From Haloarcula halobia (GTDB lineage: Archaea; Halobacteriota; Halobacteria; Halobacteriales; Haloarculaceae), in the NCBI RefSeq assembly GCF_029338255.1, contig NZ_CP119787.1, forward strand, positions 2,991,631 through 3,055,630: a stretch of 64,000 bases of DNA, written 5' to 3'. The notes below the pieces were generated by a model. The model saw only the letters and a list, made by a program, of their open reading frames with translations. It did no database searches and was not told the DNA's origin. The position numbers were made by a program, and so were the translations under genes. Shown here piece by piece: positions 6,418 through 8,343 of the stretch; within the stretch, counting starts at the first letter, position 1; each line of letters begins with the position of its first letter.

Positions 6418-7281
6418 TCACGCCGGGGGGTCGGCTGGCTCGTGGACCGCCATCTCGCCCGAGACGGCGTGCTGGCTCGTCTCGCTGAGATCGATGCCCG
6501 CCTCGCGACACGCCTCGTGGACCCCGCGGATGAACGCCGAGCGCACTGCCGGGACCCGATTCCGGCGGTTGTTCGGCACCCAGACGCGACCCGTCATGAG
6601 GACGGACGTCGGCGCGAGTTCGCCGACGGCGACGACGGGACTGGGGTCCTCCGCGACGTGGTCCAGGTCGCGGGCCACGTTCCTGACGATAGATTCCAGC
6701 TCGTCGAGGTCGGTGTCGTAGCCGACGCCGAACTCGTAGGAGACGCCGATGGGCCCCGTCGCCGTCTCGTTGGTCACCGCGCTGGTCGCAAGGTCGGTGT
6801 TCGGGACGATAATCCGTTCGTTGTCGGGCGTCCGAATGCGCGTGACCCGGAGGTCGATGTCGACGACGACGCCGCGGTTGCCGTTCCACTGGATGGTGTC
6901 GCCGACGTTGATGTCCGGGTCCGTGACGATGAACGCCCCGGAGACGAAGTTGCCCAGCACGTCCTGGGCGGCCAGGCCGACGGCGATCGTGATACCGGCG
7001 GCAATGAGCGTCGATCCGGCGAGGGTGCCCCGGAACCCCGCGAAACTCGCCGCGACGACGACGGCGACGGCGACGATCAGGAGATGCGACAGACTGGTCA
7101 GCGCACTCTCCAGCGTCCGGTCGATGTTCGATCGGCCCAGCGCCCAGTGGATGGTCGGGACCACGACGAGTCGGCCGACCGCGTAGAGGAGTGCCGCGAC
7201 GATGAAGAACTCGGCCCCGTCTTCGACGAGCTGGCCGTACGCCGAAGCGAAGTCCCCCCATCCCGGGTCCGGAATCTGCAT
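6418..7281 (-). CDS. Small-conductance mechanosensitive channel (MscS family)
   Basis: 287 aa. Three N-terminal membrane helices precede the pore-lining helix and beta domain. The typical MscS pore segment is GITIAVGLAAQDVLGNFVSG, followed by INVGDTIQWNGNRGVVVDI and the IIVPNTDLATSAVTN motif. It releases osmolytes on hypo-osmotic shock, a clear need for a halophile. It starts at ATG 7281 and ends one base from the helicase stop. Confidence 0.92.
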   Translation of the reverse strand: MQIPDPGWGDFASAYGQLVEDGAEFFIVAALLYAVGRLVVVPTIHWALGRSNIDRTLESALTSLSHLLIVAVAVVVAASFAGFRGTLAGSTLIAAGITIAVGLAAQDVLGNFVSGAFIVTDPDINVGDTIQWNGNRGVVVDIDLRVTRIRTPDNERIIVPNTDLATSAVTNETATGPIGVSYEFGVGYDTDLDELESIVRNVARDLDHVAEDPSPVVAVGELAPTSVLMTGRVWVPNNRRNRVPAVRSAFIRGVHEACREAGIDLSETSQHAVSGEMAVHEPADPPA

Positions 7282-7387: not shown

Positions 7388-7762
7388 ATGAACAGCGTTC
7401 GTCCGGACGAACTCGAGCGGTTGAGAGAGTCGTCGAACGGGGAGCAGCCATTCGTCCTCGACATTCGTCCGACGTCGGCGTTCGAGGCCGGGTCGATCGA
7501 GGAGAGCCACAATATCCCCGTCTACAACGACCTGCGTCGCGGCGACGACTCGGAACTCCGCGAGCGACTCGGCGAGGTTCCGACCGACAGGGACGTCGTC
7601 GTCGTGTGCAAGATGGGGGTGGTCGCGAAACGCGCGACCGGACTGCTTCTCGACGAGGGATACGACGCGGCGACGCTGCGGGGCGGGATGAGCGCCTGGA
7701 GCGGCTACCAGCGGGGGTCGCTGGGGTACAAACTCCGGTCGCTGCTCTGGAAGCTCAGGTGA
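7388..7762 (+). CDS. Single-domain rhodanese-like protein
   Basis: 124 aa single rhodanese domain: FVLDIRPTSAFEAGSIEES entry motif, active-site loop VVCKMGVVAKRATG with the catalytic cysteine, and the closing motif LRGGMSAWSGYQ. Rhodaneses transfer sulfane sulfur to acceptors such as cyanide or thiols; the physiological partner is unknown. ATG 7388 is preferred over an upstream in-frame start at 7310 because the domain begins at once after it. It converges with lrp. Confidence 0.85.
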   Translation: MNSVRPDELERLRESSNGEQPFVLDIRPTSAFEAGSIEESHNIPVYNDLRRGDDSELRERLGEVPTDRDVVVVCKMGVVAKRATGLLLDEGYDAATLRGGMSAWSGYQRGSLGYKLRSLLWKLR

Positions 7763-7808: not shown

Positions 7809-7829
7809 CGAGGTCGCTGCGCGACCTCG
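7809..7829 (-). terminator. GC hairpin downstream of lrp
   Basis: Perfect 8-bp inverted repeat CGAGGTCG / CGACCTCG around a 5-nt loop. It lies in the gap between the converging rhodanese and lrp genes, just past the duplicated lrp tail at 7837-7866. A terminator role is inferred from position. Confidence 0.4.
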
Positions 7830-7836
7830 CTATCGT

Positions 7837-7866
7837 TCAGCCGACGCGCTCGTCCAGGAGTAGCCT
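7837..7866 (-). pseudogene. Second, diverged copy of the last ten codons of lrp
   Basis: On the minus strand this stretch reads R-L-L-L-D-E-R-V-G-stop. The true end of lrp (7909-7938) reads R-L-I-L-D-E-R-V-G-stop. The 30-nt copies match at 26 positions; the four differences are three silent changes and one Ile/Leu change. The copies lie 72 nt apart. This is a leftover tail, not part of the expressed gene. Confidence 0.6.
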
Positions 7867-7908
7867 CAGTCGGCTAATCCTCACATCTGCGAGTCGGTTC
7901 GCTGCCGC

Positions 7909-8322
7909 TCACCCGACTCGCTCGTCCAAGATTAGCCTCGTCTTCGTACTCACGACCTCGTCCAGCTCCCGGGCCTGCGTGATGAGGTCGTTGACCGCGC
8001 CGGTGTCGGCGGCGTCGACGACCACGACGATGTCCTGTTCGCCCGAGACCTGCCAGACGAAGTCGACGGCGGGCCACTCGGCGATGTGGTCGGTGACGGC
8101 GGCCGTGTCGACGTCGACGTCGACGCCGATCTCGATCATCGCCTTGACGTTCCCGGTGCTCGTCGCGACGGTGAAGCGTTCGATGACGCCCTCGTCGACG
8201 AGTCGCTCGACGCGGTTGCGGACCGTCCCCTCCGAGGTACCTACCTGGTCTGCGATCTCCGTGTACGGGGTTCGGGCGTCCCGGCGGAGTATCGAGAGGA
8301 TCTGGCTGTCGAGGTCGTCCAT
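7909..8322 (-). CDS. lrp: Lrp/AsnC family transcriptional regulator
   Basis: 137 aa. N-terminal winged helix-turn-helix (MDDLDSQILSILRRDART, then EIADQVGTSEGTVRNRVERL) and a C-terminal RAM domain for ligand-controlled oligomerisation (GEQDIVVVVDAADTGAVN). ATG 8322 is preferred over one seven codons upstream because family members start MDDLD. It is divergent from carA; a palindrome in the shared promoter is echoed upstream of carB. It is therefore a good candidate regulator of carbamoyl phosphate synthesis (inference). Confidence 0.88.
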   Translation of the reverse strand: MDDLDSQILSILRRDARTPYTEIADQVGTSEGTVRNRVERLVDEGVIERFTVATSTGNVKAMIEIGVDVDVDTAAVTDHIAEWPAVDFVWQVSGEQDIVVVVDAADTGAVNDLITQARELDEVVSTKTRLILDERVG

Positions 8323-8343
8323 CGAGATGTGTGAGTACCGCAC

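Follow-up and report, generated by a model that had tools for sequence, protein, structure and literature searches.

Why does lrp in Haloarcula halobia end twice? The window (the whole stretch of 64,000 nucleotides analysed here) contains on its minus strand an lrp gene whose last codons recur behind its stop codon (Table 1). The minus strand reads AGGCTAATCTTGGACGAGCGAGTCGGGTGA (RLILDERVG*) at 7938-7909 and AGGCTACTCCTGGACGAGCGCGTCGGCTGA (RLLLDERVG*) at 7866-7837. The first-pass annotation had described a duplicated, diverged tail, and we found it as described: the two copies are identical at 26 of 30 positions at an offset of 72, with three silent differences and one Ile/Leu replacement. According to a scan of 2.46 Mb of the same genome (about 70% of it, which is the scope of all genome-wide counts given here), only 8 of 1976 ORF-based genes have their last 27 nt copied at 23 or more of 27 positions within 300 nt downstream. 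The reversed-sequence control reached at most 20/27, so similar tails are not as frequent in control sequence, and the scan and control together ruled out a chance origin of the lrp tail copy.

The 42-nt spacer between the copies holds an inverted copy of the tail, a point absent from the first-pass annotation, and the unit 7938-7867 is thus predicted to fold into a long two-part hairpin whose 5' arm consists of the last codons of lrp. In relatives, each unit opens with tail A, continues through a loop and the inner arm B' to the inverted copy A', and is closed by a linker (mostly GAGTG), behind which the next A begins. They are mostly 59-85 bp long, and 121-127 bp at L009, L019, L181 and L183 (L numbers denote loci), where extra sequence lies inside. 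There is no gene within the lrp units (longest 127 bp), and no T-run behind the hairpin in the sequence. The outer arms are perfect in the window unit and in Haladaptatus.

Table 1. Features of the lrp 3' end in the window (window positions), and examples of tail copies elsewhere in the same genome (positions in G000:C1).
Feature	Position	Strand	Basis
lrp (Lrp/AsnC-type regulator) reading frame, divergent from carA; likely start ATG at 8325	7909..8343	-	ORF list
Tail A, copy 1: nine final codons of lrp with stop (current coding end)	7909..7938	-	
Displaced, untranslated copy of lrp end (copy 2)	7837..7866	-	
Whole 72-bp unit, from tail A through loop, B' and A' to linker	7867..7938	-	covariance model R1
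Inner stem 5' arm (GCGAGTCGG), within coding tail	7913..7921	-	fold; pair counts
Inner stem 3' arm B' (CCGACTCGC)	7889..7897	-	fold; pair counts
Outer stem 3' arm A' (AGGATTAGCC), inverted copy of tail start (7937-7928)	7872..7881	-	fold; pair counts
Linker GACTG (GAGTG in most other species)	7867..7871	-	
Separate GC-rich palindrome CGAGGTCGCTGCGCGACCTCGC, right behind copy 2	7809..7830	.	sequence; L007 alignment
tRNA-Val	G000:C1 1076784-1076857		
tRNA-Arg(cct)	G000:C1 2078691-2078764		
tRNA-Arg(gcg)	G000:C1 907724-907797		
Protein gene, glutaredoxin-like	G000:C1 522315-522572		
Protein gene, hisE-like	G000:C1 939353-939640		
Protein gene	G000:C1 55488-56441		
Protein gene	G000:C1 1091108-1093108		

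The stems were examined for covariation. Over 19 stem pairs (391 cells), 90.5% of the cells are paired. Two-sided changes number 50, as compared to 18.4 +/- 3.6 after shuffling and at most 9 with the partner slid, where sequence relatedness inflates the shuffle control and leaves the slide control unaffected. When units exchange 3' halves, the mean cost is about 7 kcal/mol, and none of 2000 permutations was as good. The stems of the lrp unit thus contain compensatory base changes, as a structured 3' RNA element should. Most units share an unpaired outer position (T5 facing C or T), and this sharing suggests common descent of the units. No Rfam match to the lrp unit came near the gathering score, by which a known RNA family was ruled out.

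lrp DNA was matched in 57 of 60 related genomes, the relatives of the window's genome being Haloarcula in the broad sense. The covariance model, built from 22 units and searched in 392 genomes of the order, matched 45 haloarchaeal genomes (16 of 95 genera) and gave no match in the other 347; its hit to the window unit (E=3.8e-13 at G000:C1:2999497-2999568) is to one of the model's own sequences. lrp lies directly beside the unit at 28 of the best 30 loci; of the remaining two, L177 has lrp with its end not read out, and L173 is without lrp. Of the lrp loci examined, 29 carry one to four units behind the gene, and the carriers include about half of the Haloarcula species, other Haloarculaceae, Halorientalis, Haladaptatus, Halovenus and others. 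In 32 Haloarcula genomes the tail pattern is found only at lrp, close behind the gene, with no large element between the copies; a dispersed mobile repeat was ruled out, there being no tail copies away from lrp in these genomes. Array presence is patchy and changes 21 times or more on the gene-body tree. The trait also erodes: second tails are decayed at L028-L031, and at L029-L031 the hairpin is kept all the same.

Neighbouring copies show 163 synonymous and 31 non-synonymous differences, i.e. 84% synonymous versus 29% expected by chance (the arrays share ancestry, so a p-value for this excess is not to be taken literally), and nine separate arrays have at least three differences each, all silent. 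By this pattern, the untranslated copies evidently were once coding. Copies that began identical, the untranslated one then drifting regardless of frame, would not produce such an excess, and frame-blind drift of this kind fits only a few amplified arrays. Silent differences alone also fit a coding copy that drifts beside a frozen distal copy; comparisons with sister loci argue against such drift.

The displaced copy of L018 is identical (30/30) to the coding ends of the array-free loci L033 and L034, to which the coding end of L018 itself has only 22/30 identity; likewise, the displaced copy of L024 is identical (30/30) to array-free L027, and its coding end is at 24/30. A displaced second tail is common to L165, L168 and L183 at 30/30, and despite this identical tail the three have a different coding end and first unit; between L165 and L183 the coding ends differ at 8 of 30 positions and the gene bodies at 9 of 393. 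The sequence behind the displaced tail joins the flank of an array-free relative in L157/L180 (12/12) and, by alignment, in L019/L017. Tail divergence is 17.8% versus 3.0% in the body for independent close pairs with an array in one member, and 8.4% versus 3.7% for array-free close pairs, the control, in which the tail is 2.3-fold faster. The last 60 nt of the body contain 7 differences in L028/L034 and 5 in L024/L026, so the boundary is not sharp in every pair, and many other arrays lack a close array-free relative that would favour one copy over the other. For the clearest sister sets, these comparisons show a tail that was replaced and a gene body that was not. The first-pass annotation had proposed that the lrp end was replaced by a related allele with the old end left behind, and had suggested asking whether the displaced copy is closer to the native ends of sister strains than the coding copy is. 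For the family the proposal is supported by the synonymous excess, by L018 and L024, where the displaced copy is the closer one, and by L165/L168/L183.

For the window itself, the comparison was made with L007 (the same sequence as L036, Halomicroarcula sp. SYNS111), the closest relative, which lacks a tail copy. The window and L007 differ at 5 of 30 tail positions and at none of the preceding 60 nt. The tails give a tie, with 25/30 matches to L007 for the coding copy and 24/30 for the displaced copy; the L007 lrp flank is matched at 9/12 behind the displaced copy versus 5/12 behind the coding copy. On the sequence evidence, end replacement in the window is plausible, the flank continuity speaking for it and the tail comparison for neither copy.

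Some units are common to more than one locus. L011 and L019 have a common unit (tail 30/30, non-coding 38/41) despite 9% body divergence, and L009's first unit recurs in second place in L015 (28/30, 38/40); gapped identities of non-coding sequence err on the high side in these pairwise comparisons, of which only the best pairs were used. Though the sequences are short, this suggests that units move between lineages without the gene.

We consider it probable that the lrp 3' end has undergone serial end replacement by hairpin units, with the old ends left downstream. The 3' end of lrp would be a recurrent acquisition site. Units would enter always at the same place, immediately upstream of the AGG codon that lies nine codons from the stop, each with its own version of the nine terminal codons and the stop, behind which come a loop, an inverted tail copy and a short linker. 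Because the unit supplies its own codons and stop, lrp would stay intact, and the previous end would be pushed downstream and left untranslated. Repeated arrivals together with local tandem amplification would build the arrays, and recombination between copies would lose them. The units presumably come from other lineages. Candidate agents are the site-specific insertion of a mini-cassette and out-of-register recombination between arrays, the latter being short-tract and possibly anchored in the approximately 20 well-conserved nt before AGG and in the tail. Since the body upstream and the old tail are unaltered in the clearest cases, a site-specific (integrase-like) entry is favoured over short-tract out-of-register homologous recombination between arrays. 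Selection, acting either on the transcript or on DNA in single-stranded form, is probably what keeps the unit paired. Neither a recombinase nor a donor element or free form was found for the lrp units.

In ordinary tandem duplication, slippage or unequal crossing-over would copy the end of lrp locally, along with its 3' hairpin, leaving a coding copy that drifts silently and others that are remnants. Near-identical units (L118, L126, L157 and L041), identical tails (L025) and a truncated last unit (L008 and L126) agree with this, and the arrays of L025, L118, L126 and L157 evidently grew by plain tandem amplification. As the sole process it is already contradicted: coding ends differ at 8/30 over bodies that are 9/393 apart while the displaced tail is unchanged in three species, displaced copies equal the native ends of relatives, and units are common to species with 9% body divergence. 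We therefore regard it as an unlikely account of the locus. We give equally little credence to template switching at a replication fork, which would write A, A' and A in one event and in which repeated templated correction, rather than selection, would keep the pairing. The order of tail, inverted tail and tail, also present at tRNA genes, and the perfect outer arms in the window and Haladaptatus are as expected from such switching, but it cannot yield a different coding end over an unchanged body, and since mismatch and linker are conserved between genera, the units look inherited and not newly synthesised.

The first-pass annotation had likened the pattern to the action of integrases, which target gene 3' ends and regenerate them. 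The replacement part of this claim stands; an integrase or a large element, on the other hand, was not found. Conventional integrative elements that lost most of their length, leaving attL and attR, would share the gene 3' end target, the restored reading frame and the displaced old end with the lrp locus. Against this are the stereotyped unit of mostly 59-85 bp, a hairpin conserved across genera, and tail copies that occur only close behind lrp, and we hold such remnants to be very improbable. A virus or plasmid origin of the units was rejected as well: phage records gave no match, a pattern search of viral contigs gave none either, and three plasmids matched only in part. Selection on a 3' RNA structure of the lrp transcript (for stability, 3' end formation or autoregulation) is a reading of another kind, in which the coding tail would serve as 5' arm and the repeats as extra hairpins. 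The covariation is strong, also against the slid and swapped controls, and the hairpin outlasts the second tail at L029-L031; yet most genomes searched (347/392) have no match, neither a T-run nor a known RNA family was found, and the mostly silent differences of the untranslated copies are left unexplained. This reading is compatible with serial end replacement, and its probability stands on its own; we consider it possible though rather unlikely.

Several known systems resemble the lrp units in part. Integrases and prophages that target gene 3' ends carry a replacement end (e.g. e14 and phage 21 at E. coli icd), and there, as at lrp, a related end takes the place of the gene's own, the former end is displaced and the differences are mostly silent. 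At the lrp units, too, the end of the element restores the reading frame. The lrp unit differs in being mostly 59-85 bp, non-coding, arranged as a hairpin with an inverted tail copy and repeated in tandem arrays; no integrase gene or remnant was found at the units, nor were distant tail copies in 32 genomes. Rickettsia palindromic elements are short palindromic DNA that becomes part of coding sequence, as does the lrp unit, but they insert inside many different genes, whereas the lrp unit supplies the end of one particular gene. Arrays of integron attC cassettes consist of imperfect palindromes in tandem with addition at one end. The lrp units are likewise tandem imperfect palindromes with apparent addition at one end, an analogy only, as they have neither an integrase nor cassette genes. 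The PATEs, MITEs and SMRs of Haloquadratum walsbyi are transposase-free mobile repeats, and the mobilisation of SMRs has been called enigmatic (PMC3119063). Like the lrp unit, these are short and palindromic, with no coding capacity and no transposase gene. They are dispersed through the genome, whereas the lrp unit, which does not occur in many dispersed copies per genome, is practically confined to lrp and carries the end of lrp itself.

Similar duplications are found elsewhere in the genome of the window. Of 37 intron-less tRNA genes in the 2.46 Mb, 14 have a downstream copy of their 3' end, mostly at a distance of about 80-125 nt and once of 267 nt. Between gene and copy lie an inverted copy of the end, gene-specific in part, and a hairpin core common to these units. 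Many Haloarcula genomes, though not all, contain the tRNA-Val unit at its full length or close to it, and several have it in tandem. Besides lrp, seven protein genes have copies of their last 27 nt downstream (2.46 Mb), most of which flank a second kind of palindromic element, TTTTT(C)CCCA.GTTTTT...palindrome...AAAAAGGTGG; 21 copies of this element were found by regular expression, ten of them with a tail-like duplication. The tRNA and protein-gene tail copies may reflect the same process as the lrp arrays. We put forward tentatively, as somewhat short of an even chance, that haloarchaea carry a general class of palindromic cassettes (approximately 60-150 bp) that insert at gene 3' ends, regenerate them and spread by horizontal transfer. 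An undescribed recombinase acting in trans, or recombination triggered by the palindromes, would move them; the lrp arrays would be a gene-proximal-first record of successive ends, with tRNA- and protein-gene-targeting relatives in the same genome. Our search of the open-access literature turned up neither lrp tail arrays nor tRNA palindromes that duplicate tails, which is weak evidence of novelty. At lrp, the last nine codons of a chromosomal regulator would have been exchanged repeatedly without the rest of the gene, and the discarded versions kept in order behind it, making the arrays a natural recorder of gene-end replacement. The lrp, tRNA and protein-gene cases in one genome suggest a largely overlooked class of tiny gene-end elements, and at lrp the question of what moves them can be put to a concrete test.

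GC-rich palindromes of the GCGAGGTCGC type are found inside the lrp units of L019, L009, L181 and L183 or directly behind the last tail, as in the window (7809-7830), where the palindrome stands at the start of the flank common to the window and array-free L007. These palindromes look like a second, separate short element. The stretch behind lrp differs between species: a rhodanese-like gene (7388-7762, +) lies between lrp and an mscS-like gene (6418-7281, -) in the window, the start of the rhodanese-like gene is also present behind lrp in L007, and the mscS-like start directly follows lrp in L008, L010 and L015.
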